A stretch of DNA of 41,885 bases, taken from NCBI GenBank assembly GCA_903901045.1, contig CAIUPP010000099.1:1-41885 (forward strand), given 5' to 3'. Origin of the DNA: an uncultured Planctomycetota bacterium (lineage in GTDB: Bacteria; Planctomycetota; Brocadiia; CAIUPP01). This document shows positions 5,038-40,689 of the stretch, in pieces (within the stretch, counting starts at the first letter, position 1; each line of letters begins with the position of its first letter). A model generated the notes under the pieces. That model saw nothing but the letters and a program-made list of their open reading frames with translations. It was not told the origin of the DNA and searched no databases. A program made the position numbers and the translations under genes.

Positions 5038-5062
5038 GGGATTGCGGCGGCGGAACGAAGGG

Positions 5063-5213
5063 AACCACGGATGGGCACCGATGCACACGGATACGGAAGG
5101 AGGAGAACAACGGCCTTAACCGCGGACAGAGGCGCGGACGTGTGAAGACGGCAGGGAGTGTGCGTTGTAATCGCTATCTTGCTTCGTATCCGTCGTGTAC
5201 ATCCGTGGTTTCC
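5063..5213. repeat. Inverted pair of ACCACGGATG-type repeats
   Basis: The left copy (about 5063-5096) has the form ACCACGGATGGGCACCGATG followed by CACACGGATA. The right copy (about 5187-5213) is its imperfect reverse complement (TATCCGTCGTGTACATCCG then TGGTTTCC). They fill the 250-base gap between hxlB and the first YfhO-like gene. No gene is seen in the gap. Confidence 0.7.
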
Positions 5214-5219
5214 CCGCCG

Positions 5220-7661
5220 TTAATTCCTCTTCCTCCTCCACTCCTCCACCCCCAGCCCACCGCATACAAGCAGCGCGATGAGGCTCAGCGCCAGGCCGAT
5301 CCGGAAGGAGGTGGGCTGGTAGGCGAGCTCGACAACATGGTTGCCCGCCGGAACTCGCACCGCGCGGAAGCTGAAGTTGGCGATCTCGATGGGGCTCTCC
5401 GCCCCATCCACCCTGGCAACCCAGCCGGGGAAATAGTTGTCCCGCAGCACCAGCCACCCCTCGCGCTCCGCGTCGCATTGGATGACGACGTGGTCGCAGT
5501 CGGCGGAGGTGATGGGGCAAGACTTGCCGGGGAGGCTCGACTCCATCGGCGCGAGCGCCGGGTTCTCGATTATTGCCACATTCGCCGGATCGGTGGCGGG
5601 CAGGAGCGAGAGCGACTCCGCAGCGTTTGCGGTGCTCATGGATTGGAAAAGAAGCATAGCGCGAGTGGAGCGCGGGGGTCGGGTGATGCCGGGGGGATTC
5701 ACCGAGTTGGCACAATTCATCAGGAGCCATTCAGGCGCTTGCTCGACAGTGTACACGCTCGGGGCAATGTCCAGAGGAAGTCCCAGGGCCGTACGGACCA
5801 GAATGTGGTACCGCACCGGCGGGTTCGGCTCAATCCCCCCTACAAAGGGCACCCGATAGACCATGCCCCCATTCTCCAACTTCTCCTTGTACATATCGGG
5901 GCAGGAAATCCTAGTTGCAGCCTGCGCGCCGTTGGTCGTACAAGCGTTCACGCCGGGCCGCTCGGCGAAGAAAGTCGCCCAATCTCCGGCGAACTGCTGA
6001 GTGAAGATGAACAAGTCAAGCGCCACAAGACCCAGGATGGCCGCCTGTCGGCCCGTGGAGCGCGCCTTGAACGCGGCCAGCGAGAGTAAGAGGAGGACTG
6101 TCAACATGAGCATAACGAAGGATTGATGCATTGTGCCCCAGAACAATTCAGCCATAGAAACAGTCGTGTGCGGTTGATTTGACGGGAGAATCTCGCCGCT
6201 GGAACCGACTGAGAGAATGAGCCCGTCAGGATGGTTCAGGAGGTTCAGCAATGAAGCCGCTAATGCAACATAGACGACGAGCGGGAGAAGCAATATCTTC
6301 CGCGGCCGGAGTTCCGCCTCTAGCACCGCCCGCGCGCCGAGTCCCGCCAATAGCGCCAGCATGAGCGAGAAGGGCATGAGGAACTTGGAGGCCCCCCGGA
6401 ACATCTCGCTGAACGGCAGCAGCGCGCCGACCAGCCCCATCAGCGGAGTATGTTTGCCCATCGCAAGCAGCAGAAGGATCAGCGCGGGGATGCCGAAAAC
6501 CATCGTCCTGCGCCGTGGCTTGATGAGGCAAAATGCGGCCACAACCAGCGCGAGCGCCACAACGCCGATATAGGCGTTCATTTCCCAGAAGTAGAAGCGT
6601 CCCCAGTACGGACTCCCCCCCGTTCCGCCGAAGAGGCCGGGGACGAGCATCGTCAGGAGGTTCTCCGGGGCGAGGGAGAAGAGTTCGGTCCATTCCTTGC
6701 GCATCGCCAGGCTGCGCGCACCGTAGCTCCCCGCCTCGAGGCCGGGGATCAGTTGCACCGCCGAGAGCGCCGCGCCGAGCAGATACATCGCGACGAACCC
6801 GGCCCATTCGACCCACGGCAGACTTCTTAGCAAAGAGGACACAGAGAAGGTCCGAATTCTGATTTCTGATTTCTGATTTCTGCTTCGCGATTCAACGACA
6901 ACAACGCCAAGCGCGCTGGGACAGCGCGCTCCACCATTCTGCATTCTGCACTCTGCATTCTGCACTCTGCATTCTATGACGCCCCGCACGAGCGCATACA
7001 GTCCCGCCGCGATGGCGCTGATGAAGACATATTGCGGAACCCCCGCGAGCACCTGCATTCCCACCGCGAGCCCGCCGACGATCACCGGCCAGCGCCCCGG
7101 ACGCTGGAATTGCCATTCGACGCAGAAGAGAATCAGCGGCAGCCAGGGGATCGCCGTCGAGACCCCCCAATGCCCCGCCGGTATCCGCAGCCATTGCGCT
7201 GCGCAGAAGGTGAACGTCATCGCCGCCACCGCCGACCCCACGCGCCCGCAGCGCAGCAGCCGCGCCAGCAGGTACGTGAACAGCAGCGAGAGCCAGAGGT
7301 GCAGCAGCAGGCTGTCGCGCGCCGCCCGCGCCACATCCGGCATGAGGAAGAGCAGGTTGGGCGGATAGAGCATCGCCGACTGGAAGTTGCCGAGGAAGGG
7401 CGTCCCGCAGAGGATGTACGGATTCCAGAGCGGCAGATGCCCCGCGCGGATCTGGTCGAACGCGAAGGCGCGCCAGGGATACCACTGCGTCTCGGCATCG
7501 TGGCCGGGTATGCCGGGGGCTGCCTCCGGCGGCGCAAAGAGCCATGGGCCGAATGCGAGGGTGGCCAGCAGGAACAGGGCAGCTATCAGAGCGGCGTCAC
7601 GCCGGTCCAGTCCGAGGAGCTTTGGCGGTTGATTCGTCATTCGGGTTTCGTCATTCGTCAT
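5220..7661 (-). CDS. YfhO-family polytopic membrane protein (paralogue 2)
   Basis: This 813-residue protein has a dozen or more hydrophobic segments and the YfhO-family layout: an N-terminal loop with ETQWYPWRAFAFDQ and GHLPLWNPYILCGTPFLG, a series of membrane helices, and a C-terminal extracytoplasmic beta domain ending in DNYFPGWVARVDG and VPAGNHVVELAYQPTSFRIG. YfhO proteins are GT-C-like and are linked to glycosylation of wall polymers or lipids; this one's substrate is unknown. It overlaps the upstream paralogue by ATGA (7661-7658), indicating translational coupling. The first residues (MTNDETRMTNQ) come from a dispersed repeat. Residues about 225-270 hold two more repeat families in frame, so this loop is an unusual insertion. 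Confidence 0.85.
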   Translation of the reverse strand: MTNDETRMTNQPPKLLGLDRRDAALIAALFLLATLAFGPWLFAPPEAAPGIPGHDAETQWYPWRAFAFDQIRAGHLPLWNPYILCGTPFLGNFQSAMLYPPNLLFLMPDVARAARDSLLLHLWLSLLFTYLLARLLRCGRVGSAVAAMTFTFCAAQWLRIPAGHWGVSTAIPWLPLILFCVEWQFQRPGRWPVIVGGLAVGMQVLAGVPQYVFISAIAAGLYALVRGVIECRVQNAECRMQNGGARCPSALGVVVVESRSRNQKSEIRIRTFSVSSLLRSLPWVEWAGFVAMYLLGAALSAVQLIPGLEAGSYGARSLAMRKEWTELFSLAPENLLTMLVPGLFGGTGGSPYWGRFYFWEMNAYIGVVALALVVAAFCLIKPRRRTMVFGIPALILLLLAMGKHTPLMGLVGALLPFSEMFRGASKFLMPFSLMLALLAGLGARAVLEAELRPRKILLLPLVVYVALAASLLNLLNHPDGLILSVGSSGEILPSNQPHTTVSMAELFWGTMHQSFVMLMLTVLLLLSLAAFKARSTGRQAAILGLVALDLFIFTQQFAGDWATFFAERPGVNACTTNGAQAATRISCPDMYKEKLENGGMVYRVPFVGGIEPNPPVRYHILVRTALGLPLDIAPSVYTVEQAPEWLLMNCANSVNPPGITRPPRSTRAMLLFQSMSTANAAESLSLLPATDPANVAIIENPALAPMESSLPGKSCPITSADCDHVVIQCDAEREGWLVLRDNYFPGWVARVDGAESPIEIANFSFRAVRVPAGNHVVELAYQPTSFRIGLALSLIALLVCGGLGVEEWRRKRN
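6854..6976. repeat. Two intergenic-type repeat families inside a coding sequence
   Basis: The TCTGATT repeat (6854-6885, four TTCTGATTT-like units) and the CATTCTGCA/CACTCTGCA repeat (about 6935-6976) lie in frame inside the YfhO-like gene. On the minus strand they encode ECRVQNAECRMQN and RNQKSEIRI. The reading frame is intact through both. Confidence 0.85.
7633..7661. repeat. TTCGTCATTCG repeat that supplies a start codon
   Basis: ATTCGTCATTCGG-type units occur twice. Read on the minus strand they give ATGACGAATGACGAA and hence the N-terminus MTNDETRMTN of the downstream YfhO-like protein. Close copies lie at 10240-10280 and 16814-16843. Confidence 0.8.
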
Positions 7662-10132
7662 TGTGCCCCGCGCGCCCCCCTTCTGCGCCAAAGCCCGAAT
7701 CCTGTCAATGCAAGGCAGAGGATCAGCCCGATGCCGCTGGCGATCAGTCCGTTCCTGAAACTGGCCGGACGGTAGCGGAACTCCACTTCATGCTCCCCAG
7801 CGGGGAGCGCGATGGCGCGCATGGCGTAGTTGGCGCGGAGAATCTCGACGGGCCGTCCGTCCACCGTCGCCTCCCAACCGGGGAAATGCAACTCGCTCAG
7901 CAGGAGGATCGCGTCGCTCCCGGCGCGCACCTTCAGCGCCAGCCGGTCCGCCTCATACGCGGTGAACTCGGGCGCAGGTTCGCGCACAGGCGGCTGGGAA
8001 AGCGCGAGATGAGGATCGCTCTCAAACAGCGCCTGGCGAGCATAGCTGAAGCTGAGCATGCGCTTCAGCACTTCGTCCGGGTCCGGCACCACCGCGTACG
8101 AATGCACCAGCCACGCCCGCGGGAACCAGACCGGCAGTTCGTCGATGCGAATGCGCTCGTCCTGGTAAACGCCAACCTTCAGCCCCTCTATTTGTCGCGT
8201 GACCGGGTTGTTCTTGTACTGGACAAAGTAGCGCACGTTGAGCATCAGCAGCGGGGGCACAACCGTTCGCACCGCGTACGCGGTGTTCTGCCGTCCCTTC
8301 TCCATCTCCTGAATGGTCCAGAACAGGTCGCGGAAGCGCGCGGGGACGTTCGGCTGCACCCCTTCGAGGCACCACAAATCATGGTCCATCCCCTCGCACG
8401 GCGGGAAGTCGTAGCAGCCGGCGCGGATGAAACGGAACGGCGCGCCGGGCTTCTCGCTCAAGTACTGGACGGCGCCGGGGGTCAAGCCATCGGCGGACGG
8501 GTCGAAGGAGACCATGTAGCGGTGGCCGAAGCTCCAGGCGTCCGCCGCCACGAGCAGCAGCGTCCCGAGGAGGAACCATTGGAGCCGTCTGTAGCGCAGA
8601 AGCCAGAGCACGATGGCGAAGCCGCCGAGCAGCAACCCCGTGCGCACAAGGTCCAGCCCGGCGAAAAGGCGCGCGCGTTCGACGAAGCCGGCGTTGACGA
8701 TCCCGTGCGGCAGATACAGCCGCTGCCCCGGCCCGATGTTCAGCATCCAGCGCATGAAGGAGAACCAAGTCTCTTTCACCGACTCCATCGGCGCGGCGAG
8801 CAACGCGCCGATCAGAACAAGCGCCACCGCGCCGAGGCCGATCACCCACGCGCAGGGACGCCACGCGGGTTTGGGCTTTTCCTCGCGCGCTTCGCGCATC
8901 AGCGCGTCCATTCCCATCCCGGCCAGCAGCGCCATGAAGAGGCTGAACGGATAGAGATACCGCCCCGGACTGCGGAACAGGTCGAACCCCGGCAGCGTTT
9001 CGTAGAAGATCCGCAGCAGCGGCGTCGCCTTGCCCAGCGCCATCAGCAGGAAGAAGAGCGCGATCAGCCCCGCCAGAATCCCAAGCTTCCTGCGCCCCCG
9101 CCAGAGGCCGATGAACGCCAGCGCGAAGACGATGACGCCGATGTACGCCGAGCTCTCCCACAGGTTCCAGCGCCCCCAGTAGCGCATGGGGATGTCGCCG
9201 CCGAAGAAGTCGGGGGAGAGCAGCGTCACGAGGTTCTCCGGCGGGATGGGGTACTGGGAAATCCAGTCGTAGGTGAGTTGCCCCTTGCGCGAGGAAAGCC
9301 CCAGCATCTCCACGGCGGGCAGGACTTGCGCTCCGGCCAGCAGCGTGCCCAGCAGATAGATCGCGCCGAATTCGACGAGGACCCGGTAGGCGAAGGTGCT
9401 GCCGCGCGCGCGTTCCATGACCAGCCGGCCGATGACGTACAGGAACGCCGCGATGCCGCCGTAGAAGAGGTACTGCGGGTTTCCCCCGAACCACTGCATG
9501 GCGACGGCCAGCGCGCCGCCGGCCACCGCCAGAGGACGCCAACCGCCGCGCAGCGCTTCCTCGATGCAGAGCAGAATCGCCGGGGTCCAGGCCATGGGGG
9601 CGAGGAAACTCCAATGCCCCTCGAACACTCGCAACACCTGCTGCGCGCAGAAGGCGTAGCCGACCATCGCGACGGCGGCCCCCTGCCAGCGCAGCCCCAG
9701 ACGCCGGCACCAGAGGTACGTGAACGCGCCGGAGCAGAAGAGATTCAGCAGGATGCCCAGGTTGATCCCCCGCCCCATGGGCATGACGGCGCAGAGCCAA
9801 TGGAAGGGATAGAACATGGCGGACTGGAGCGAGGCGACGAAGGGCATGCCGAGGAATTCGTACGGGTTCCAGAGCGGGAAGTGCCCCTGGCGCACCTGGT
9901 CGAAGCCGAAAACGCGCCATCCGTAGAACTGGCTGCGCGCGTCGCCGGCGGCGCGGCCAAGGACGCTTCCGCCGGGCTGCAGCAGGGCATGCGCAAAGAA
10001 GAGAAGCAGGAAGAGCAGGAACGCGCCGAGGACCATCAAGTCCCGGCGGTCGAGCGCGTCGTCAGATTGTTTGAGCAGCGGTTCTTCCACAGGTAGACCG
10101 CGTAATGTATGAACGGATTCAACGTTCAACAT
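7658..10132 (-). CDS. YfhO-family polytopic membrane protein (paralogue 1)
   Basis: This 824-residue protein has the same architecture as its downstream neighbour: GDARSQFYGWRVFGFDQ and GHFPLWNPYEFLGMPF near the N-terminus, many membrane helices, and a C-terminal domain with LHFPGWEATVDGRPVEI, LPAGEHEVEFRYRP and SFRNGL. Shared motifs at matching positions show the two arose by duplication, although identity outside the motifs looks moderate. The role is inferred to be GT-C-type transfer from a lipid-linked sugar outside the membrane; the substrate is unknown. The start is uncertain: the ATG at 10132 lies within a TTGAACGTTGAA repeat, gives the N-terminus MLNVESVHTL and has no clear ribosome site. 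A GTG near residue 15 is an alternative. Confidence 0.85.
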   Translation of the reverse strand: MLNVESVHTLRGLPVEEPLLKQSDDALDRRDLMVLGAFLLFLLLFFAHALLQPGGSVLGRAAGDARSQFYGWRVFGFDQVRQGHFPLWNPYEFLGMPFVASLQSAMFYPFHWLCAVMPMGRGINLGILLNLFCSGAFTYLWCRRLGLRWQGAAVAMVGYAFCAQQVLRVFEGHWSFLAPMAWTPAILLCIEEALRGGWRPLAVAGGALAVAMQWFGGNPQYLFYGGIAAFLYVIGRLVMERARGSTFAYRVLVEFGAIYLLGTLLAGAQVLPAVEMLGLSSRKGQLTYDWISQYPIPPENLVTLLSPDFFGGDIPMRYWGRWNLWESSAYIGVIVFALAFIGLWRGRRKLGILAGLIALFFLLMALGKATPLLRIFYETLPGFDLFRSPGRYLYPFSLFMALLAGMGMDALMREAREEKPKPAWRPCAWVIGLGAVALVLIGALLAAPMESVKETWFSFMRWMLNIGPGQRLYLPHGIVNAGFVERARLFAGLDLVRTGLLLGGFAIVLWLLRYRRLQWFLLGTLLLVAADAWSFGHRYMVSFDPSADGLTPGAVQYLSEKPGAPFRFIRAGCYDFPPCEGMDHDLWCLEGVQPNVPARFRDLFWTIQEMEKGRQNTAYAVRTVVPPLLMLNVRYFVQYKNNPVTRQIEGLKVGVYQDERIRIDELPVWFPRAWLVHSYAVVPDPDEVLKRMLSFSYARQALFESDPHLALSQPPVREPAPEFTAYEADRLALKVRAGSDAILLLSELHFPGWEATVDGRPVEILRANYAMRAIALPAGEHEVEFRYRPASFRNGLIASGIGLILCLALTGFGLWRRRGARGAQ

Positions 10133-10156
10133 CCAACGTTCAACGTCCGACGTTCA
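10114..10156. repeat. TTCAACGTTCAAC repeat
   Basis: Imperfect tandem units of CAACGTTCAA are separated by CATC or CGTC. The array overlaps the presumed start of the YfhO-like gene ending at 10132. A related copy lies at 15781-15835. Confidence 0.75.
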
Positions 10157-10239
10157 AGTTACGGCGAACGACGATACCCCCGTAAAGCTTTCTGCGCTGC
10201 GAACAAAGTCGACCGCGCAGCTTTCGAATTTGCCGTTTC

Positions 10240-15860: not shown

Positions 15861-16841
15861 CTACTTGCCTCCCATGCTGCTTTTTCGGTACATCCACTCT
15901 CCCAGCGGTATGAGCGCCGCTGCCGTCAGCACCCCTCCAAACACGTCCACCAGGTAGTGATAGCGGCAATAGACCGTTGCGGCGCTGAGCAGGACCACCA
16001 GTACCAGGTGGAACCAGCGCACCTTCGGAATGAACCGCCAGGAGAAGTAAAGCGTGCACAAGGCAATCGCCACGTGGCTGCTGGGGAACGCGGCGCCGGG
16101 CGTTTCCATATGCGCGTAGATGAACTTCATGACGTTGAAGAACGGCCCGGCGTCCAGCCCTGCCGGGTAGGCCAGCGGAAAGGCCGGGAACTGCTGACGA
16201 TCGAAGCCCGGCACCTCGACGCAGAATACGCGCGCTCCGACCACCGGCAGGATGATGTAGATGAGGTAGCAGATGTAAAACACGAAGGAGATGATCGATA
16301 CGTAGCGCCAGAATAACAGCCTGTCCCGAAGGTAGAGAATCAGCCCCACCCCCACGATCATGGCGTAATAGGAGAAATAGCACATGTAGAATAGTTCGCT
16401 GACAGGGAGATAAGGGAGCTTCTGCATGAAGCAGATGCTGGGCTGGCAGCCGAACAGGCTCTGGTCGAGCCGCATGAAGAAGCCGTCCAGGTACCCCGTG
16501 ACGAACATCTGATTGATCTCCCCCACCTCCCGATAGAAGAAGGAATAGAGGAGGATGGGGTAGAAGTGGCGGAGGAAGTCCAGCGCGCGGTTGCCGGGAT
16601 GCCGCGCATGCGCCCGGATGAGCCACTGGACCAAGAGGATGCAGGCGCCGTGGGAGGCCAGGAAGAGCGCTTTTCGGGCCGGGTCGCCGTGGTAGAGGAA
16701 CAGCACCATCAACCCCACGAGCAGCACATACCCCTGCGTCGCGTAGTCCACGAACGTGTAACCGTCGAGGCGGCAGAAACCGGGCCGCGCGTCGGGCTCA
16801 TTGGCCGCTTGGTTCGTCATTCGGGCTTCGTCATTCGTCAT
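15861..16841 (-). CDS. PAP2-superfamily membrane enzyme, possible ceramide head-group transferase
   Basis: This 326-residue protein has several membrane helices and the PAP2 phosphatase/phosphotransferase signatures: PGAAFPSSHVA (SSH at 254-256) and YCRYHYLVDVFGG (Arg293, His295, Asp299). The HYLVDV arrangement resembles the PAP2_3/Aur1-like branch, which includes inositol-phosphoceramide synthases. Directly downstream of three ceramide-type genes, it is inferred to add or remove the polar head group of ceramide; a lipid phosphatase is equally possible. The N-terminal MTNDEARMTNQ comes from the TTCGTCATTCG repeat. A second ATG at residue 8 is an alternative start. It is 10 bases after the reductase gene stop, so probably the last gene of the operon. 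Confidence 0.8.
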   Translation of the reverse strand: MTNDEARMTNQAANEPDARPGFCRLDGYTFVDYATQGYVLLVGLMVLFLYHGDPARKALFLASHGACILLVQWLIRAHARHPGNRALDFLRHFYPILLYSFFYREVGEINQMFVTGYLDGFFMRLDQSLFGCQPSICFMQKLPYLPVSELFYMCYFSYYAMIVGVGLILYLRDRLLFWRYVSIISFVFYICYLIYIILPVVGARVFCVEVPGFDRQQFPAFPLAYPAGLDAGPFFNVMKFIYAHMETPGAAFPSSHVAIALCTLYFSWRFIPKVRWFHLVLVVLLSAATVYCRYHYLVDVFGGVLTAAALIPLGEWMYRKSSMGGK

Positions 16842-16843
16842 TC
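16814..16843. repeat. TTCGTCATTCGG repeat supplying the PAP2 gene start
   Basis: This is a near-identical copy of the units at 7633-7661 and likewise provides the start codon and first residues of a coding sequence on the minus strand. Confidence 0.8.
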
Positions 16844-30831: not shown

Positions 30832-32412
30832 TCAGTTCAACTTTTGGATATGCGGTCTTCTCCCACACAGCCACGACCAAAAGGGCATGCGATGAGTTTC
30901 ACCGTCGGCCTTTGCCGTTCCAGAATCATGGTTCGACACCTGGGCGACCTCCATGTCTGTGACCTTGCCACCGTCCCCCCCTTCTGGACATTCGGTTGGG
31001 CCAACCTCCATCAACTCCGTTGAGCCCGATCCGGGGTTCTCCTCAATAGGGTCTCCAGCTCCGAGAATTCCGCCGGGACCGCACGCAGGACACTCCGGGT
31101 TCGGCTTGCAGGCCACGGCCATGATGGAATCGCGGTTGCGGCTGTAGTACAAGTGCTCGTGGCCGGAGAAATCCTCTCCCTGGATAAGCTTTGCCATGTG
31201 CGATAGAGCCAGGCCGGTGAGAATCGCGTTAAGATGAATGACTGCCGGCGTCGGCGTGATCTGAGTATTACGAACATACCCTGCCCGTTCTCGCTGAAGG
31301 CGCCATCGGCGAGGCATCCGCTCCGCTGCGACCTCCTGTGTATCAATACCACCACAACAAAAAAGGCACCCGGTCTTGCCGGGGAGGACCACACGGACTT
31401 GACCGACGGAGTCATACTTGCCGCCACCCACTGGAACGATCTCTGTGGCGACGTCCAAGTAAGGAATCAAGTAGCGTAGGGAGAGTTCCATCAAAGCGCT
31501 ACGAGCCGCTTCGGAGTCCACACAACCGACGAGCAGGTGCGCCGTCTTGAGTGCCTCCCGAGCCCAGAACGACTGCACCCCCAAACAGTAGGGACGGACT
31601 CGGACGCGCCGGTCACGCCGGTAATGAAAGAGCTTTGCGATGCGGACTTTGAAATGGCTAGCGTCCTTGGGGCCAGCATAAGGCAATCTCGGCAGGTTGG
31701 ACTTTTCCACGCGATCGGGGTCGCAAATGATGATACCGGCCTGCCTTCCCACGCCCATGCCCACGAGTCCCTGCAACATGAGGGCACCCGTTCCGCCGCA
31801 ACCTGCAAGGCCGACACGGACGGCGGCCAGGCGGGACTGGTTCCACCCGGAAATCAGGCTGTGTCGGGCGAAAAGCTCCTGATCGGAAGCGGTCAACTCA
31901 TCGGGCGCCGGCATACAGGAGATTGGCGACCCGAGGAGTTCGACTCGGTGGAGAATGTCGAAGCGCCTCGCCTCTGGATCGTATATTCTTCCTTCGAAGG
32001 CCGTGGCCTCCTGATTGAGAACTACCATTCCCATCCGGCACTTTGACGGGAAGTGTTCAGTGACATAGGCGGCGTTCATCTGGCCGTGGTGGTCATCAAT
32101 AGAACTGAAATGCGGCTGCCCGGCATGCGTATGCGTATGAAGATCAATGATGGACAAGTCCTCGTCGTGTGCCAACTGATAGGCCAGCCCTTGGAGTTTG
32201 CGGCCGGGTCGCGCATACCCGGCCGACTGTATTTCCATATCCTTTCTTTCCGCGAAGATCATCTTTTGGCCCAGGAAAATCTCTTCTCCCAATTGTGAAA
32301 CCGCTCGGCGGGCTAACAAGAAACCGAACTGTTCCACCTGGGGGGTGTTCCTGATGAAGTCGTGTATTTGCGCCCATTGGTTCTGGGTCAGGCGCAGGAC
32401 AGTTGTTTTCAT
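30832..32412 (-). CDS. JAMM deconjugase fused to E1/ThiF activating enzyme
   Basis: This 526-residue protein joins two ubiquitin-cycle activities. Residues 1-165 form a JAB/MPN domain with Glu27 (EQFGFLL) and the zinc motif His94-x-His96-x7-Ser104-x2-Asp107, all intact. Such enzymes cut isopeptide bonds or trim modifiers. Residues about 195-440 form an E1-like adenylation domain with GLAGCGGTGA (Gly204-x-Gly-Gly-x-Gly209), DPDRVEKSNLPRL (Asp231, Asp233, Asn239, Arg242) and a zinc site built from Cys349-x2-Cys352 and Cys441-x2-Cys444. A Gly/Glu-rich low-complexity tail (about 448-505) ends in FWSWLCGRR. AAGGAG lies 6 bases before the ATG at 32412, inside the end of the E2 gene. A ThiF/MoeB role in cofactor sulfur transfer is unlikely given the E2 neighbour. 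Confidence 0.92.
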   Translation of the reverse strand: MKTTVLRLTQNQWAQIHDFIRNTPQVEQFGFLLARRAVSQLGEEIFLGQKMIFAERKDMEIQSAGYARPGRKLQGLAYQLAHDEDLSIIDLHTHTHAGQPHFSSIDDHHGQMNAAYVTEHFPSKCRMGMVVLNQEATAFEGRIYDPEARRFDILHRVELLGSPISCMPAPDELTASDQELFARHSLISGWNQSRLAAVRVGLAGCGGTGALMLQGLVGMGVGRQAGIIICDPDRVEKSNLPRLPYAGPKDASHFKVRIAKLFHYRRDRRVRVRPYCLGVQSFWAREALKTAHLLVGCVDSEAARSALMELSLRYLIPYLDVATEIVPVGGGKYDSVGQVRVVLPGKTGCLFCCGGIDTQEVAAERMPRRWRLQRERAGYVRNTQITPTPAVIHLNAILTGLALSHMAKLIQGEDFSGHEHLYYSRNRDSIMAVACKPNPECPACGPGGILGAGDPIEENPGSGSTELMEVGPTECPEGGDGGKVTDMEVAQVSNHDSGTAKADGETHRMPFWSWLCGRRPHIQKLN

Positions 32413-32423
32413 AATCGTCTCCT

Positions 32424-32813
32424 TCAAAGCCGCGGATTCGTCAGGTCAGCGCGAACCCGCTCAAGCAGAGAGATAAGGTTGTCTCGGTTAGGCACCCAAT
32501 CAATGCTCTCGTAACAGAGCCACGCCCACTCCTTTCCCCCGACAGTGTGATCCTCGTGATAATCTCTGGGCACATGCCCGTGATACCGCAAGCCCGGCTC
32601 AAGAAAGATTGGGCTGGCGGGCGCCCCCGGAGGACTCAGTGGATAGTCCTCCGGGATTTGGATGCGCATCCGCGTGTGTGTGCGATTCCAGCCTGGAGGC
32701 AACCGTACATCTTGGACAATGACGGTGCCCAAGTCACGCGAGGCCAGCACCTTGCACACAATCGAGAGCGCCTTGAGATGACGCAGCAAGACGGTGACAT
32801 TACGCAGGCCCAT
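32424..32813 (-). CDS. E2-like ubiquitin-conjugating protein
   Basis: This 129-residue single-domain protein keeps the order of E2 landmarks. A beta-strand region is followed by IPEDYPLSPPGAP (the E2 YP-x-x-PP segment, residues 53-65), a His-containing RYHGHVP in place of HPN, and WAWLCYESIDW with the candidate catalytic Cys100. Then comes VPNRDNLISLLERVRADLTNP, matching the W-x-P...DP tail of E2s. It would take the activated modifier from the E1 as a thioester. The gene starts two bases after the ubiquitin-like stop, and its GAGGGG ribosome site lies within the last codons of that gene, so the two are coupled. Its sequence is distant from eukaryotic E2s; it fits the predicted bacterial E2 families. 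Confidence 0.85.
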   Translation of the reverse strand: MGLRNVTVLLRHLKALSIVCKVLASRDLGTVIVQDVRLPPGWNRTHTRMRIQIPEDYPLSPPGAPASPIFLEPGLRYHGHVPRDYHEDHTVGGKEWAWLCYESIDWVPNRDNLISLLERVRADLTNPRL

Positions 32814-32815
32814 GG

Positions 32816-33037
32816 CTATTCCCCTCGTTCGGCGCGTGGCGCGTCAACGAAGACGTCGCCTGGCCTAACCAAACTCTTTCCAGCTGGCGGAAGAATCTCA
32901 TTACTGCCGTCAGCGTGTTGTACGATCAGCGCACGTCCGGCCGATCCACTGTTACTGCGCATTTGACTGATATCCACGTATCCGTCAGCGTCTTCTTCCA
33001 CTTCGTGTACCTGGCCATTAGCACTAATGAGTCGCAT
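32816..33037 (-). CDS. Ubiquitin-like beta-grasp protein candidate
   Basis: This 73-residue protein starts at the ATG at 33037 (AAGGAG 8 bases upstream); a GTG three codons earlier overlaps that site and is rejected. It begins with a beta-hairpin-like stretch (MRLISANGQVHEVEED) and ends with LVRPGDVFVDAPRAERGE. The GD-x-F strand resembles the end of the bacterial multiubiquitin/Ubl fold. Size and position directly before an E2 and an E1 support a modifier role. The C-terminus is not Gly-Gly but Arg-Gly-Glu: removal of the final Glu by the fused JAMM domain would expose Gly72. Fold assignment is by pattern and context only. Its start lies six bases after the preceding stop. Confidence 0.68.
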   Translation of the reverse strand: MRLISANGQVHEVEEDADGYVDISQMRSNSGSAGRALIVQHADGSNEILPPAGKSLVRPGDVFVDAPRAERGE

Positions 33038-33042
33038 AGCTT

Positions 33043-33273
33043 TCACTCCTTACCAGAAAAGCGTTTTCCAGATGATTCGCCGGAGGCGCGCTGGCGCCCT
33101 CGCGTAAAGGACCAGTACATCTCCTCCTGACCGTTCGCAGTTCTCGGACTTCGACCGGCAGTACGCGTCCGAGACTCGGGCCCTGAACGCGGCCCTAACA
33201 ACCCATGGCGCCGCAAAATCCTCGGAGTCCAGACGAGGACTGTGACGAGGCCAACGAGTTCAAGTAACCCCAT
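33043..33273 (-). CDS. Small single-span membrane protein in the ubiquitin-like operon
   Basis: This 76-residue protein has one N-terminal hydrophobic segment (LLELVGLVTVLVW, about residues 3-15) and a long basic, Ser/Arg-rich tail. The consensus ribosome site AAAGGAGG lies five bases before the ATG at 33273, strong evidence that it is translated. No family is recognised. It sits directly upstream of the ubiquitin-like gene and downstream of another small gene. The basic tail could face the cytoplasm and anchor conjugation components, but that is speculation. Confidence 0.6.
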   Translation of the reverse strand: MGLLELVGLVTVLVWTPRILRRHGLLGPRSGPESRTRTAGRSPRTANGQEEMYWSFTRGRQRASGESSGKRFSGKE

Positions 33274-33285
33274 ACCCACCTCCTT

Positions 33286-33513
33286 TCATTTCAAACAGGG
33301 CCTTTGAGCCGTTCGAGTATGTTGAGAAACCCGTTCACTTAGCATGCACGGCCCGCATGCTCCATTTCGCAAAGTTCTCTTCGGCCACTTTCTGGCGGGC
33401 GCTCTTGACGACGGGCGTCTTTCTAGGGGGCGGCGCACACGCGAGTGGCGGAGACCATCGGGCGATGAGCCTATTCCCCACGGATCATTGATGTACGTTT
33501 TCTGGCGATTCAT
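33286..33513 (-). CDS. Small basic protein, translationally coupled
   Basis: This 75-residue, strongly basic protein has many Arg residues and one CGPC motif (near residue 53). Its ATG overlaps the stop of the upstream membrane protein as ATGA (33513-33510) and GGAGG lies five bases before it, which supports translation. No family and no membrane segment are recognised. The alternative, that this is a chance frame in the spacer, is not excluded. Confidence 0.5.
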   Translation of the reverse strand: MNRQKTYINDPWGIGSSPDGLRHSRVRRPLERRPSSRAPARKWPKRTLRNGACGPCMLSERVSQHTRTAQRPCLK

Positions 33514-33746
33514 CGCCGCCTCCGGTTCAAGACGAGGAAGTAGGCCGTAACGTAGAGCAGCGCCAAGACCATCACGACCAAGGTGAAGCGGCCAAACGAC
33601 GGCATGGCCCAGATGGTGTCGCAGAACTCCCGCCACATCTCCGCCAATTTGAGTGCTGCCAAGGCGCCGGCGATTGCGCGATGGTAGGCGAGAAGGATGA
33701 TGATTCCCACCACGACCAAGATTGCGCGCCAATTGATGCGGGCCAT
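33510..33746 (-). CDS. Small two-span membrane protein
   Basis: This 78-residue protein has two clear hydrophobic helices (about residues 8-31 and 53-73), a short loop (EMWREFCDTIW) and an Arg4 C-terminus. AGGAG lies seven bases before the ATG at 33746, nine bases after the ATPase stop. No family is recognised. It could be the membrane partner of the upstream ATPase. Confidence 0.7.
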   Translation of the reverse strand: MARINWRAILVVVGIIILLAYHRAIAGALAALKLAEMWREFCDTIWAMPSFGRFTLVVMVLALLYVTAYFLVLNRRRR

Positions 33747-33755
33747 GGCTCTCTC

Positions 33756-35894
33756 CTATTGCTCCCGGTTCTTCTTAGTAAGAGTGCTGAACAAAACCAA
33801 ACGCACGCGGTGCCTCAAATCCGGAGGAAGACCCGACCGATTGAGGCGTTTCATAACGGCTTGTCGAACGGCATGGTCGCGGCACAGGAAGACAATTCTC
33901 CGAAATCCCTCGCCACCACATTTGACGGCATTGCCAACGATGTTGGTAATATTGCTCGTAATTTCCCAGGCCTCAATGCTTCCGTCTTTCCGATGGACGC
34001 ACATGTCAACGGCAGATCCCTTAGTGTCCACCGGCACGTCCACCTCAATCCGGTCCACCGATGGTTCTTTCGCGATGAAATGTCTGGCCATCGCCTGCAG
34101 GAAGGCGTGTTCCAGCGACGGACCGAAGAGCCAGGTCGGCGGTTCCTGGTCAAGGATTCCGTATCCCTTCTTAGTTGCGATGAGATAGACCGCTTGGCCT
34201 ACCAGGACGGAGGGAGCGTAATCGGATTGTTCCAACACGCGGCGATCCGCTAGGCCGGCGCGCGCTGAGGACCCAAGCCGGATCAGCCGGTCGCTGTACA
34301 TGCTGAATGGATAGGAAATGAGGTCCCAAAGGAGGCGTGCTGCACCCGGCGGAAGATCCAATGGCGCCTCCGGCTTTCTGCCGAGTTCTCCGGCGGGCGG
34401 AGCCGGCGGCACGTCAGGCACCGAGACGGGCGGCCGGACCACCACCACTTCCCGGAAGTCCCACAAGGGTTTCCATGGGATGATATCGAGACCCTCCACG
34501 AACGCCTTCCCTTCCTCTTCGGCCCGGCGGATATCCCCAGTCGGGGCGGCCACGTCGGGGGTCCATCCATGAATCGGGTAGCGCCACTGACCGCTTGTGT
34601 ACTGCCCCACCACTTCGCGCGCGACCATGCGGCCCAGTTGCTGCTGTTGCTCGCTGTTCAAGCCCATCAACTTGGCCACGACCTCTCGGTCATCGCCGGC
34701 ATGAACTCCGCCGACCACCAGGCGCAAATTACACAAAGCGAGAATACCCTGATCCATCTCCGATGGCCGGTGTGTCACGTAGAGTACCCCGCATCCGCTA
34801 CTCCGAAGGACAGCGTGGAGATGTGTCAGGGGCGAGGTCAGGACGGCGCCGAGTTCGCGGGAGACAAACCGCGTGGCATCATCAATGATGAGCAGAAGTT
34901 CCAGTTTGTCGGTCGCTGGACGGCGCTGGGCTTCCTTATAGAGGTAGTACAGGAGCGTAAGGATGAACAGCCGACAGACCCATGCATCGGTGATGTGCCG
35001 GAAACGCAGGATCACGTTACGCTCCCCCACGAGGCGCCGGATAGAGGCGCCCTTCCGGCAGACGAAGAGGTTTCCGCTACCCAATTCGATCCGCTGAAAT
35101 GCCGTATCGGCGGCCTGAAGGTAACCGGCACGCCTGTACTCCTGCGCTCCCTCAACCATTGGCAGCGTCAAGCGATGGTCACGCAGGCTGAGCTCAAAGG
35201 GTTGGCCCGACACCCTGCGCGCCACTTCCAGTTGCGGGAGCAGAATTTCGCCGGTTTCCTGGATCGGGCCGATGCTCTGGATCAGGTTCGGGATGCCCCC
35301 CACTTGGGGCAAGAGTTCGTGGAGATAGCTCCGGCGATCCTCCCCCTCGGGCGGGCCGAAGTCGTGGGAAATATCCGTCTCATCTATGACTGCCGCATCC
35401 AATTCCTGTGCATACTCGGCCAATTCCCCTTTGGGGTCCACGATGAAAAAGCGCCGTCTCGTCTGACGGAGCTGTTTACCCAGATGCACAACCAACCGCG
35501 TCTTTCCAGACATTTGCGGCCCAATCAGGACGCCGCCTCGCAGGAGGATATCGGGTTGAAGGTACCACTCGACGTTGTCCACCTGGTTAATAATGTGCAG
35601 TTCGCCTTCATTGAGCATCTCTGCCGTGGCGTACGGCCGGTATGCGTCGGGATTGCGGATGGCGTCCTTCCCGCACGCGTCAATTGCCGCGAGAAGGCGC
35701 TCGCGCGCTTGCGCTCTCGTCCCTGGCCACCCAAGCGATGCGACGCGTAGCAATTCCTGAATCTCAGGCCGGTAGATCAGCCCCGTTTCGCGCAGGTCCT
35801 TCTCTATTTGATCAAGCTCAGGGTCGGCGTCCAGCCTCCTGAACCCGTCATCGCCAAGAAAGCCCGTGTTCAGTTTTCGGTCCAGCGGTTTCAT
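33756..35894 (-). CDS. HerA/VirD4-type ATPase with C-terminal nuclease-like domain
   Basis: This 712-residue P-loop ATPase belongs to the FtsK/HerA/VirD4 superfamily. Walker A is GPQMSGKT (residues 125-132), followed by FFIVDPKGEL, a phrase typical of type IV coupling proteins; Walker B is LLLIIDD (333-339), followed by a YVTHRP sensor segment. A Pro-rich linker (about 485-515) leads to a C-terminal domain (about 590-712). There SAVDMCVHRKDGSIEAWEIT (Asp630, Glu644) resembles the D...E-x-(K/T) core of PD-(D/E)xK nucleases; that reading is weak. Such ATPases pump DNA or protein through hexameric rings. Its ATG overlaps the upstream stop (ATGA, 35894-35891). Its role in a ubiquitin-like operon is unknown: substrate transfer, DNA processing, or a conjugation target. 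Confidence 0.85.
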   Translation of the reverse strand: MKPLDRKLNTGFLGDDGFRRLDADPELDQIEKDLRETGLIYRPEIQELLRVASLGWPGTRAQARERLLAAIDACGKDAIRNPDAYRPYATAEMLNEGELHIINQVDNVEWYLQPDILLRGGVLIGPQMSGKTRLVVHLGKQLRQTRRRFFIVDPKGELAEYAQELDAAVIDETDISHDFGPPEGEDRRSYLHELLPQVGGIPNLIQSIGPIQETGEILLPQLEVARRVSGQPFELSLRDHRLTLPMVEGAQEYRRAGYLQAADTAFQRIELGSGNLFVCRKGASIRRLVGERNVILRFRHITDAWVCRLFILTLLYYLYKEAQRRPATDKLELLLIIDDATRFVSRELGAVLTSPLTHLHAVLRSSGCGVLYVTHRPSEMDQGILALCNLRLVVGGVHAGDDREVVAKLMGLNSEQQQQLGRMVAREVVGQYTSGQWRYPIHGWTPDVAAPTGDIRRAEEEGKAFVEGLDIIPWKPLWDFREVVVVRPPVSVPDVPPAPPAGELGRKPEAPLDLPPGAARLLWDLISYPFSMYSDRLIRLGSSARAGLADRRVLEQSDYAPSVLVGQAVYLIATKKGYGILDQEPPTWLFGPSLEHAFLQAMARHFIAKEPSVDRIEVDVPVDTKGSAVDMCVHRKDGSIEAWEITSNITNIVGNAVKCGGEGFRRIVFLCRDHAVRQAVMKRLNRSGLPPDLRHRVRLVLFSTLTKKNREQ

Positions 35895-36484
35895 TGCAGC
35901 CGATCCTCCGGTGGCTTCACGAACGGGAAGGTGAGCGCGCGGACGATCTTGCCGAAGAATTGGGCGCGCTTGGATTCTTCAAGACATGCGGGGCAGAGAT
36001 AGACGGCAGGAGAGGTATCGTCTGGCTGGAAGGCAAGTGCATGTCGGTGACAGGTGGCACGGCGACAGGCGGCGCACTCCGTTCTGCACGCGGTGCAGAA
36101 CAGGCTGTGCTGCTCAGCCGCGACGGGGTCCATGACACCGGCGACCACCATCTCTTGGGCTTCGAGCATACAGAACGCGCAACGCCCGCCAAGTTGCTCG
36201 TAGCTTTCGATCAGGTGGCCGTCCCCACCGACCACGCCGCGCACGTCGCGGACTCTGTCCAGGGAACCATCGGGCCCGGCAGAGACAGCTTGTATCACAG
36301 AAAAAGAGACTCGCGTTCCGGGGATCGTCTGACGTTCAACAGTGCGCTCAATGGGCCGGCCGGGCGGGATCGGCAGTTCGTCGCTGGTCAAAGGTTGATT
36401 CGGCGCCGACGCCGGCGGGCGAGCCGCACCTTGCGACGAGCGGCCGAAAAGGTACCGGAGCCAGGTTCGTGGCGTTTCAAACAT
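35891..36484 (-). CDS. Cys-rich zinc-binding protein
   Basis: This 197-residue protein has a disordered Pro-rich N-terminus (about 20-50) and a metal-binding region: Cys102-x2-Cys105, Cys130-x2-Cys133, Cys137-x2-Cys140, Cys145 with His146/His148, and Cys164-x2-Cys167. That is enough for two or three zinc ions in a cross-brace or B-box-like arrangement. No catalytic residues are seen. AAAGGA lies five bases before the ATG at 36484. It is directly coupled to the ATPase gene. B-box/treble-clef proteins paired with membrane ATPases are known in prokaryotes; a binding platform for the modifier is a reasonable guess. Confidence 0.75.
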   Translation of the reverse strand: MFETPRTWLRYLFGRSSQGAARPPASAPNQPLTSDELPIPPGRPIERTVERQTIPGTRVSFSVIQAVSAGPDGSLDRVRDVRGVVGGDGHLIESYEQLGGRCAFCMLEAQEMVVAGVMDPVAAEQHSLFCTACRTECAACRRATCHRHALAFQPDDTSPAVYLCPACLEESKRAQFFGKIVRALTFPFVKPPEDRLQ

Positions 36485-36493
36485 ACGTTTCCT

Positions 36494-36664
36494 TTACCAG
36501 CTATGGCCGAAGACGAGACGATGGAGAAGCTGGCCGACCCGAGCGCATGTGGCCACTGCTATGTAGGCTCCCAACGTGGCGAGAGCTGTTCCGGCAATCA
36601 GGACACAAAGTACGATCGTTCCACGCATTCCTACTTCCAGTTTCTCGCCGAGTTCCTTCAACAT
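36494..36664 (-). CDS. First gene of the operon: small membrane protein
   Basis: This 56-residue protein has one strong hydrophobic helix (TIVLCVLIAGTALATLGAYIAVA). The ATG at 36664 has only a weak GGA seven bases upstream; a TTG 18 bases earlier (36682) and an internal ATG (MRGTIV) are alternatives. It precedes the zinc protein by nine bases. No family is recognised. Confidence 0.6.
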   Translation of the reverse strand: MLKELGEKLEVGMRGTIVLCVLIAGTALATLGAYIAVATCARVGQLLHRLVFGHSW

Positions 36665-36706
36665 GGCTAATCCGCCAACCAACTTTGTGGGGTACTTTCT
36701 AGCTGA

Positions 36707-36735
36707 AGGCTATTACGCGAAAAGCCACATGTCAA
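36707..36735 (-). promoter_or_regulatory. Candidate promoter of the ubiquitin-like operon
   Basis: On the minus strand a perfect TTGACA (36735-36730) is followed after 17 bases by TAGCCT (36712-36707). The -10 is poor; TAATAG lies closer but at only a 14-base spacing. It is the only good -35 in the 262-base divergent gap. Confidence 0.4.
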
Positions 36736-36829
36736 GTCCTATCATGCTGTCGAATAATGAGATACAGCGCTTACGATTTGCGGAAATACTGGCGGATATG
36801 TGTACCCACAGTAGTGCTTGGAACCATGC

Positions 36830-36858
36830 TTGTTGATATGAGGTCCGCGTGATATGCT
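36830..36858 (+). promoter_or_regulatory. Candidate promoter of the NACHT gene
   Basis: TTGTTG (36830-36835), 17 bases, and TATGCT (36853-36858) with a TG extension just upstream. Transcription would start near 36865, within the tandem 12-base repeat. Confidence 0.45.
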
Positions 36859-36862
36859 TCCA

Positions 36863-36886
36863 CTTGCGGAACCGCTTGCGGAACTG
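36863..36886 (+). repeat. Tandem 12-base repeat, candidate operator
   Basis: CTTGCGGAACCG is followed immediately by CTTGCGGAACTG. One mismatch in 12 bases and the location at the predicted transcription start make it a plausible binding site for a repressor. Confidence 0.55.
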
Positions 36887-36926
36887 CAATTGTTGACACA
36901 AGTTTTTTCTCGCCAGGCGGGGAGAA

Positions 36927-39900
36927 ATGCGTAAGCCAAGGCATGAAGGATCACCGTTGGCCGGCCTTGCCTTTCTGATAGAGTCAACGGCGCCGGCTGG
37001 CCGCATGATCCGTGAAGTATTCTTTCGAGTACGTCAGCGGGGCGCAAAGTGGCAACGCGCAGGTGTAGACCCGTCAAAGCATAAGAGCTATTGGTTCTAC
37101 GCCGCTCTCTTCTCCTTCGCAGTCCGAACGCTAGATCGTCTGAAGAGGTTACCGTCTGCCAACGTCATGGCCGGACAGGGTGACTCACAAATCATCCTCA
37201 CTATCCACGCCAGCGACCCTGTTTGCGGTGACTTGGTACAACATTTCTACCGTGTTCGGCATAGCAAGAGACACTCTCGACACCCCGCTCACACAGCTAT
37301 CTCGCCGGACTTGGCCGCAGGCGCTCAGGTCGTCTTCAAGGCACGTTCAGGAACTGGCAAAGCGGAGTGTGCACGTGTTGAGGTCCAATCGTCAGCGGGC
37401 AACATTGAAATCTACTTCTGGAAACCAGAGCGACTCCCTGAGTCTGCTGTCAATGCCGCAGGGGAGCTAGGATTCCCGTTCTTAAGAGGTGAGATGCCAC
37501 CGGATGACTTCGCGCTGGAAGAATTGCTGACAATAGCCAGACGGGAGCGGCCACCATTCCGCAGCCGAGACTGGATCGAACTGTATCGTAGAGCCGCTCT
37601 GTTTGAACCCTCGATGTTCGCTCTAATCCCGATGAAGGGGGATCACGTTGAAGAGCGGAGTCTAGGGCATGCATTATCTTCCCCAAACGCGTCAGGAAGC
37701 ACCACGGCCATTCCCTTTCATCCAGAGACGTTCTCGCTGGACGAAATGGTTCAACGTCACGGGCGCGTGGTACTCACAGCGCCAGCTGGGGGGGGCAAGA
37801 CGACGCTTCTGAATTCGCTGCTGCGCAAACACCTGAGCCGGATGAACGATGGTCGTGGTGACGGACATATCGTTTTTGCGATAAGATTAGGAAACGTTGG
37901 GCGCGTAAAGGCCGGGGCAAACGTCGCAAAATGGATAGCGGGGTCGGTTCGAGACTGCATCAGTCGCTTGGATATCCGCGACCTTGAGCAGGTTCAACTT
38001 CCGGCTGGGCGACGGGCGAGAAGACTCAACGTGCAAACACTGACAAAGGAAGAGGTCCTTGCCGAAATAGGAAAGCAGGTTGAAGTGTGGTTTGAGTCAG
38101 GGCAGTTACCACAAGACAAGATGCTACTTCTCCTCGATGGCTATAACGAGGCACCGTTGGACTCTCGTGCATCAATAGACCGCGGGATCGAGGTGCTGAC
38201 TGCGAAGGGGTTCCACTTCATTCTTGCATCTCGTGTCGCTGAACTCCCGTCGCTATCGGCCGCGGTTCAGGAGTTCAGGTTGCAGACATTGTCTGACCGG
38301 CAAATTGTCTACTACCTTAGACAGTGGTTTCCTGGAAAAGGAAGGGATCTATTTGATAGTTGCATCGCTTCTGACAGTGGCATTCTAGCCATGGCGCAAA
38401 ATCCGTTCTTCTTGAACCTTATCGCCAATTGGATTCACATGAATCCGACACGGCCCATCCCCGACACTCATGGCCATCTCATCAGGTGGTTCGTACGGGA
38501 ATGTGCTTATCGTAAGCGAAGGACTGACGAGGTGGGCATCCCGGATATTCCAGATCGTGTGAAGGACCGGGTTCTAGGGGAGATCGGTTACGTGATGTTG
38601 CGGAACGTAACTTTGGAGCCACACGAAGAGCCCATTCGGTATCCGATGAAGTCGAGCGACCAGTCTCTGGAAGGATGGCCACTTCATGAAGTCCTGGACG
38701 TTGCAGAAGCTGAGGGGCTGCTGCGAGTAACAGAGACTAACGTCATTCATGGTGGCAGAGATTACGAGTTTGGACACGACTATTTCCGGGACTACTTTGC
38801 TTCCTTGTACCTGCATGGCCTCAGGAGAGAAGTACTTGTGCGAGAGATGCGTGAGCTAAGCGAGTTCTTTGCGTGGGACAATAGCATTATAATGTTCTTC
38901 GAGCACGCAACCCAGAAGGAACAGGAGAATGTGGCTGCTGCTTTTGATTGCATTAGCAGACTTGCTCCCATCCTTGCCAGCCGATGCGCATATGCCTGGC
39001 GCTATGTGGACAGACAGAGGGTGGTAGCACTTCTTGGAGTTACCTGCAGCGACTACGCAACGGCGTTGCATCGCTGGTATTTCACCAAAGAGTCCGCTAG
39101 TGATGTCTCATTGCCCGCTCACTTCCCTGATAAATTGGTTGGTGCCGCAGCATATGTTCTCGGAAGACTCCCCAAAATGGAAGTCGCTAGGCTGGCGCGG
39201 TCCCAACCTGTGTCAAGCCTTCGTGAACAAGCTGCTATACTGGTGTCGCTATCCTGGAAAGAGGAGGAAAGACTGCCGCTGTTGTTGGATCTTGTTCGAC
39301 GCCCTTTCCCGAATTGCACATTGGCAATATGGGGCCTTTCTCTTTGTCAATCACCCAAGGCGTGGCAGGCCATGGTGGACCGTTTGTCGATTGAATCGAG
39401 TGCGCCCTCCAATGATGCTGAATGGGATATCTTCCACATCCTTTCCGCTTCGAATGCTGTCGTCCCAGTAGACCAGGCACTTCAGGCATATGAACGCGCC
39501 CCCTCGTGGTTTCCGCCTCGGTGCAAAGGGGCTCTTCTTAAGGCCCTTGCCAATGCGCCGCAGGAGCAGGTTGGGCTGGTACTTAAGCTCTTAGACGATC
39601 CCCGGGAACTGGTGCGAATATACGCTTGCGCGGCAGTTCGCGACGCAAAATGGAGGCCGCCCGACGAAGCTATTACTTCGCGGCTACGCGATGCGTCCGT
39701 CGATTTGTTGTGTTCAAGTTTCTATCATATCATGCTCCAGGTCGTGGTAAAATGCGTTACACCAACTTACGAACCGGTATTGCTTGCGCTGCTTGAGCGG
39801 ATTGTTGCTCAGGATTCTGACGCTGCGATGGGGGAGTATTCTTTAAACAAAGTTACGGCCTTGCGGGAGACTGTGGGACGCATTTGCAGTGCTTTGTCGA

Positions 39901-40664
39901 GAATACCGGGGCAGAGGTCATTTGATCTACGGCTCAAAGTGGCATCTAACCCCTACAGTTGGTTCAGGAGGGAGGTAACATCTGGTCTCATCGAGCATGA
40001 TAGTACAGTCATGAATGCACTTACGTGCAATCCCGGCAAAGGTCAAGGACCGGTTGAAGAGGCCGCAGTCCTACTGCTGGCCTGGCGATATAGTGCCGCT
40101 AGCTCGAAGGGCACCTACTCAGACGAAGGGATGAAGGTCATGGTTTTGGCCCTGCGGGAGCTTTGTCAGTCGAGCGTCTGGACTAAACCTGCGCACCCGC
40201 CCCCCCTCGATGCTAAGGGCGACATTTCTATACTCGATAGCCATGGCCCAGTCGGAACGATGGTTGCAGACATATATCATTGGTTCTACTTCTCCAAACG
40301 CGCTCACGAGTGCCGCGAGTTGATAGACTTGATGCACAGCAGGTCGGTTCCGCTGGTAATCCGTCGGGCATTCAAGCAGGTACTTCGCAGAAACCAGGAT
40401 GAACCATTGCCGCCGATGCCGGAGCTTTCCGTCGCCGCTACGGAAGAGAGTATTGGCCGTTGGCGCCTTTGTGTGGACCACAGCGTCAAGGAACGCAGAA
40501 TTAAGGAAGCCATAGAGGACTTTGATATAATTAATGAATTATGTGCCTATGGGGGCCGGCGATATCTGCGAGCACTGAAAGGGTTTCCGTGTTCCCCCAG
40601 CAGACGAGAAGCAAAGGGGGCTGAACTCGGGAGAAGATCCGCTGGACCTCCAGCGGTCTCGTAA
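36927..40664 (+). CDS. NACHT/STAND-type NTPase with C-terminal repeats
   Basis: This 1245-residue protein has three parts. Residues 1-270 are an N-terminal domain that I do not recognise, possibly the effector. Residues about 270-600 are a NACHT NTPase with Walker A APAGGGKTT (285-293), Walker B LLLLDGYNEAP (400-410, acidic Asp404 and Glu408) and the sensor FILASR. The C-terminal 600 residues contain degenerate helical repeats of HEAT/ARM type (LLDDPRELVRIYACAAVRDAKW) fit for sensing. Bacterial NACHT proteins of this size act in anti-phage immunity. The ATG at 36927 is preceded closely by GGGGAG; an ATG 26 codons later is an alternative. It is divergent from the ubiquitin-like operon and has the lowest GC in the window. 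Confidence 0.85.
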   Translation: MRKPRHEGSPLAGLAFLIESTAPAGRMIREVFFRVRQRGAKWQRAGVDPSKHKSYWFYAALFSFAVRTLDRLKRLPSANVMAGQGDSQIILTIHASDPVCGDLVQHFYRVRHSKRHSRHPAHTAISPDLAAGAQVVFKARSGTGKAECARVEVQSSAGNIEIYFWKPERLPESAVNAAGELGFPFLRGEMPPDDFALEELLTIARRERPPFRSRDWIELYRRAALFEPSMFALIPMKGDHVEERSLGHALSSPNASGSTTAIPFHPETFSLDEMVQRHGRVVLTAPAGGGKTTLLNSLLRKHLSRMNDGRGDGHIVFAIRLGNVGRVKAGANVAKWIAGSVRDCISRLDIRDLEQVQLPAGRRARRLNVQTLTKEEVLAEIGKQVEVWFESGQLPQDKMLLLLDGYNEAPLDSRASIDRGIEVLTAKGFHFILASRVAELPSLSAAVQEFRLQTLSDRQIVYYLRQWFPGKGRDLFDSCIASDSGILAMAQNPFFLNLIANWIHMNPTRPIPDTHGHLIRWFVRECAYRKRRTDEVGIPDIPDRVKDRVLGEIGYVMLRNVTLEPHEEPIRYPMKSSDQSLEGWPLHEVLDVAEAEGLLRVTETNVIHGGRDYEFGHDYFRDYFASLYLHGLRREVLVREMRELSEFFAWDNSIIMFFEHATQKEQENVAAAFDCISRLAPILASRCAYAWRYVDRQRVVALLGVTCSDYATALHRWYFTKESASDVSLPAHFPDKLVGAAAYVLGRLPKMEVARLARSQPVSSLREQAAILVSLSWKEEERLPLLLDLVRRPFPNCTLAIWGLSLCQSPKAWQAMVDRLSIESSAPSNDAEWDIFHILSASNAVVPVDQALQAYERAPSWFPPRCKGALLKALANAPQEQVGLVLKLLDDPRELVRIYACAAVRDAKWRPPDEAITSRLRDASVDLLCSSFYHIMLQVVVKCVTPTYEPVLLALLERIVAQDSDAAMGEYSLNKVTALRETVGRICSALSRIPGQRSFDLRLKVASNPYSWFRREVTSGLIEHDSTVMNALTCNPGKGQGPVEEAAVLLLAWRYSAASSKGTYSDEGMKVMVLALRELCQSSVWTKPAHPPPLDAKGDISILDSHGPVGTMVADIYHWFYFSKRAHECRELIDLMHSRSVPLVIRRAFKQVLRRNQDEPLPPMPELSVAATEESIGRWRLCVDHSVKERRIKEAIEDFDIINELCAYGGRRYLRALKGFPCSPSRREAKGAELGRRSAGPPAVS

Positions 40665-40689
40665 GATGCAACGGGTCATACTAATGGTG

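Follow-up and report, generated by a model that had tools for sequence, protein, structure and literature searches.

Intragenic REPs with a GTAG or CGTC tag have been reported to lie in frame, as single elements or dimers, within diverse genes, many of them of DNA repair, being commonest in Opitutus terrae and Rickettsia conorii, with clusters that can encode 43-82 residues (PMC3733652, 2013). The Rickettsia palindromic elements of about 150 bp, as summarized in later accounts (Ogata et al. 2000, via PMC10969869 and PMC3733652), are inserted with the frame kept into numerous unrelated genes within a single genome. The REPs of Pseudomonas, which are known together with RAYTs, are GTGG-tagged and have the form TGTGGGAGCGGGC..GCCCGCGAA (PMC2817692). 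In Beggiatoaceae, short intergenic arrays of the 7-mer TAACTGA have been described (MacGregor 2015, PMC4679880), often located at gene starts, a few of which extend into reading frames.

The locus considered here belongs to a window of 41,885 nucleotides (the whole stretch of DNA that was analysed) from an uncultured Planctomycetota bacterium, and shares some features with each of these systems. As in the case of the intragenic REPs of PMC3733652, palindromes are found in frame inside diverse genes, but the tag is GTGG, two heptamer arrays accompany the palindrome in fixed order, and two polytopic membrane proteins are among the hosts. With the Rickettsia palindromic elements, it has in common the in-frame insertion into unrelated genes (five here) and an insert of 126 nt, comparable to about 150 bp; unlike them, as far as the summarized accounts go, the copies here are mostly extragenic and form a block with tandem heptamers, and the two are likened by description and not by sequence. 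The Pseudomonas REPs (PMC2817692) are resembled in the GTGG foot preceding a G+C-rich hairpin, in the inverted pairs and in the presence of RAYT genes in the genome, whereas the stem is another one and no RAYT gene flanked by the REP family of the host gene was found in the loci examined in this draft genome. Short 7-mer arrays that are intergenic, stand at gene starts and in some cases enter reading frames recall those of the Beggiatoaceae; however, the unit differs, and in the accessible part of that report the cases within reading frames are mostly at protein ends and no REP between arrays is reported. With REPs inside genes and the Rickettsia elements both on record, it is the composite of a REP with heptamers entering proteins that appears to be new, no report of such an insertion having been found in the literature searched.

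The carrier of the insert is the gene of a YfhO-like polytopic membrane protein (PF09586; Pfam YfhO, 9.2e-10) at 5220..7691 of the minus strand, whose translation gives a frame of 823 residues without interruption, the repeats included. The earlier note had claimed that two intergenic repeat families invade this gene with the frame kept, and both arrays were indeed recovered by Tandem Repeats Finder: TTCTGAT x3.7 with 100% matches at 6857-6882 (array A, minus strand, (ATCAGAA)n on the gene strand, encoding RNQKSEIRI) and CATTCTG x5.9 with 88% matches at 6935-6975 (array B, minus strand, (GCAGAAT)n on the gene strand, encoding ECRVQNAECRMQN), the latter also showing a higher-order period of 14 nt at 100%. 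With at most three mismatches allowed, the assembly to which the window belongs, one draft of 4.77 Mb in 154 contigs, contained 77 matches to (CATTCTG)3 and 42 to (TTCTGAT)3, as opposed to 0 and 1 for the respective reversed patterns, counts in which adjacent phases of an array are scored separately, so that the loci are fewer than the matches. The arrays are therefore not a product of chance, as the genome-wide matches far exceed the reversed controls. What had been overlooked was a third and central family, the REP-type palindrome GGTGGAGCGCGCTGTCCCAGCGCGCTTG of 28 nt (gene strand; 6908..6935, minus strand), which has a 9-bp perfect stem, encodes GGARCPSALG and is followed towards array A by a spacer at 6883..6907 (minus strand) that is weakly shared with other copies. 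At about 6831..6850 of the minus strand lies a fragment like a further dispersed repeat (CCTTCTCTGTGTCCTCTTTG on the gene strand, CAAAGAGGACACAGAGAAGG on the plus strand), of uncertain membership in the insert, with the relatives CTCTGTGTCTC/CCGTGGTGAA at several other loci; beside the host gene, ACCACGGATGGGCACCGATGCACACGGATACGGA at 5060-5110 looks like another short dispersed repeat. The extra in-frame sequence itself occupies 6846..6971 (minus strand), that is, about 126 nt or 42 codons corresponding to residues ~241-282, with edges uncertain by some codons. Very likely, (GCAGAAT)n, the REP palindrome, the short spacer and (ATCAGAA)n make up the extra loop as a mosaic, which came from a normally intergenic composite entering a loop codon.

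Heptamer arrays also lie over the start regions of both YfhO-like genes, the host gene (7632..7662, minus strand, unit ATTCGTC) and the paralogue that is the next gene after it (10118-10157), as well as over the start region of the PAP2 gene 15861-16841 (array 16813-16843) and the 3' end of the glycosyltransferase gene 317-1579 (array 305-343). Because the arrays overlap the gene ends, those protein ends are partly repeat-encoded. At another place of the window, 30832-41715, a ThiF (E1-like) protein, a HerA-like ATPase occurring twice and a NACHT protein are encoded close together, with weak PADLOC matches to E1-E2, mad8 and HerA, and this region is possibly a defence cluster.

In the alignment with the class homologues, the loop bounded by residues 236 and 297 comprises 60 residues in the host protein, 16 in the paralogue (7658..10132, minus strand) and 18 in the other class members covering the site, one of which has 17; the addition of 42 to 44 residues agrees with the figure of about 45 given before, and the paralogue lacks the insert as had been said. 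The same-family orthologue of the host protein (43% over 326-821, 58% over 160-236) is also without the insert, its loop length being uncounted owing to a run of N behind the loop, and in nearly all relatives spanning the site the homology ends near residue 240 and restarts at 292-305. That neither the paralogue nor the same-family orthologue nor the class relatives have the insert supports the repeat-driven in-frame growth of the loop that the earlier note had proposed. By hydropathy, the insert is flanked by the hydrophobic segments 221-239 and 294-315 and is thus placed between two predicted membrane helices; an AlphaFold model from a two-sequence alignment was set aside as too poor for loop placement (mean pLDDT 37), only hinting at helices on either side. 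Residues 241-282 contain 8 K/R versus 3 D/E, and this charge, taken with the hydropathy, suggests a cytoplasmic position of the enlarged loop. The same excess of positive charge could be read as the mark of a selected functional loop, a putative cytoplasmic segment binding a partner or the membrane, but this reading is improbable, as the REP in the insert is identical to the family consensus, so that no adaptation after the insertion is visible there, and nothing alike exists in any relative. The added loop is most likely near-neutral and cytoplasmic, with no specific function being claimed for it.

The unit of seven nucleotides, not divisible by three, brings in the question of a phase-variable gene, in which slippage in the arrays would work as a switch: the gain or loss of 7 or 14 bases would break the frame and silence the protein, and that of 21 would leave it on. 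YfhO-type glycosyltransferases serve in surface-polymer modification, a usual target of phase variation, which speaks for this view. In simulation, changes of -14, -7, +7 and +14 in either array truncated the product to 261-490 residues, and changes of +/-21 left it at full length. However, the arrays are short (3.7 and 5.9 units), the repeats of array B are imperfect, and arrays of both kinds are strewn between many unrelated genes, all of which makes a switch at this locus unlikely.

The palindrome between the arrays was found in 46 copies with up to two mismatches in this genome by the search with its 25-nt core, while the reversed control gave none; 57 further genomes from the class or family contained no copy of that core within the same limit. 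The GTGG tag is invariant at positions 0-3 in the 46 copies; GTGGAGC served also as the alignment seed, and the unseeded two-mismatch search likewise gave GTGG in 46/46. The aligned copies are conserved only from -2 to +26 around the 25-mer, with sharp edges, and the stem variants are compensatory (GCGGGC..GCCCGC, GCGCGCC..GGCGCGC and GCGCGCTC..GAGCGCGC), including a subfamily with the paired stem change GCCGGC..GCCGGC. For nine copies an inverted partner is located within 125 nt, forming inverted doublets. On account of the copy number, the paired stem changes, the sharp boundaries and the inverted partners, and also of the size, which falls in the 20-40 nt typical of REPs, the 5' tetranucleotide and the mostly extragenic location, the hairpin family is one of REP-type palindromes.

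A search with the insert DNA returned, in contig C138, a match of 130 bp with 81% identity, and portions of the insert elsewhere. Of 50 REP copies, 13 have array B, in a single orientation, on their GTGG side, and four have array A on the opposite side; the mirrored arrangement was seen in two copies for each of the arrays, and most REP copies are without adjoining heptamers. The order and orientation of heptamers and REP are nearly fixed at other loci, and for this reason the two-family invasion of the earlier description fits less well than the arrival of one composite; judging by these sequence comparisons, the insert is probably one mosaic block rather than the result of two separate invasions. 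A stepwise assembly is possible in view of the many REP copies without arrays. The corresponding alternative, according to which a hot spot received the REP and each of the arrays independently and the composite look only reflects the clustering of intergenic repeats, draws on that lack of heptamers beside most copies, on the limited association on the B side and the mirrored cases, and on other dispersed repeats clustering at these sites too. It is a possible, though doubtful, reading, against which stand the nearly fixed order and orientation wherever REP and arrays co-occur and the copy of the whole block in C138. The heptamers as a trait of the whole class were considered and rejected, the exact combined pattern being present in only seven of 75 genomes, at 1-4 places in each.

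The insert is not a single case, since at least four other genes contain in-frame inserts of REP or heptamers. About seven of 49 REP copies, in five genes, are in frame within the coding sequence, with the same open frame and coding signal on both flanks, as determined by a codon score trained on the window genes and applied to the REP flanks, a census that depends on the threshold and misses copies at protein ends. The genes are those of the YfhO-like protein, PrmC, a membrane TPR protein, a molybdopterin/Fe-S protein and RecQ. In PrmC, 26 residues precede the NPPY motif where E. coli PrmC (PDB 1t43) has four, which amounts to an insert of 22 residues. The membrane TPR protein has, relative to its same-family orthologue, about 11 extra residues from a REP and about 26 from a separate heptamer stretch, both inserts being between hydrophobic segments; behind the heptamer stretch (L203, 4058-4150) a CTCTGT..CCGCGGTGAAC-type repeat is found, as in the window gene, which suggests a longer shared mosaic. 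In the ActB-like molybdopterin/Fe-S protein, a REP pair coincides with an alignment gap relative to 6lod_B, and in the RecQ helicase three REPs are in the C-terminal region beyond the first RQC match, a weaker comparison as the E. coli RecQ match ends there. In the cases seen, as aligned, the inserts sit in predicted loops or linkers. A strict heptamer scan gave a further weak in-gene candidate at L007:1171-1198. Short-read assemblers fail at repeats and the genome is in 154 contigs, which lends something to the view that an intergenic repeat was misjoined into the gene by assembly or binning; such an artefact is nevertheless very improbable, because the block keeps the frame exactly, the codon signal of the gene is in the same frame on both flanks (0.42 and 0.38), and the four other genes have the same kind of insert.

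How such DNA may be translated without interruption is partly seen in its composition. The REP core has zero stop codons in six frames; array B is stop-free in six frames, and array A is stop-free on the strand used in the host gene. Seven being coprime to three, a strand is read as one and the same seven-codon cycle whichever frame is used, and owing to this, array B is open in every case and array A in the orientation present here. The idea that the block is open in every frame was rejected, since the whole block of 127 nt is open from end to end in only one of six frames; among shuffled versions of the block, 8% are open in any given frame. The remaining composite copies that were tested have at most one open frame across the block, and the openness of the insert is therefore a matter of the selection of survivors and not of design.

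The following course may be proposed for the origin of the inserts. A REP-associated tyrosine transposase, working on single-stranded DNA, would probably copy a REP or a REP-heptamer composite to another site; replication slippage would then lengthen or shorten the heptamer arrays; and the survivors would be those inserts which keep the frame, contain no stop in the frame that is read and are situated in a loop or linker, a last step for which the observed cases speak. Six Y1 transposase genes are present in the genome, and two of them, C7 and C139, are above the curated cut-off of the REP-associated tyrosine transposase model NF047646. The C7 gene has on both sides, in one orientation, hairpins of a second GTGG-tagged REP family, GTGGCGCGGGTTATCCAACCCGCG, present in 29 copies in the genome (L193 3289 and 4101; G000:C7:5288-5315 and 6100-6127), and C7 was accordingly rejected as the owner of the host-gene REP family, the flanking hairpins being of another family. 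The C139 gene is preceded by GTAG hairpins (GTAGCGCGGGCTTTAGCCCGCG): just upstream of it (L196 3925-4030, G000:C139) stand three near-tandem CGCGGGCTTTAGCCCGCG hairpins, two of the three GTAG-tagged, which constitute a third REP family. The hairpins beside the C7 and C139 genes are thus of two families other than the host-gene REP, which counts against a transposase link.

A broader view can be offered only tentatively, namely that the REP-heptamer composite moves as a single unit, with components for the most part devoid of stops on the coding strand, and repeatedly provides host proteins, including a translation-termination enzyme and membrane proteins, with ready-made loops or linkers. The REP open in six frames and the 7-mer arrays with one seven-codon cycle per strand suggest a reason for the survival of such inserts, and REPs and heptamer arrays, which are usually studied apart, are linked here. 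For the annotation of predicted proteins, caution is needed, as peptides like AECRMQN or IRNQKSE can be translated repeat DNA. The passage of intergenic DNA into protein by in-frame inserts is a little-studied route, and the present genome offers several cases in which non-coding mobile repeats turned into protein sequence, the conserved loop length of the relatives giving a clean state before the insertion.
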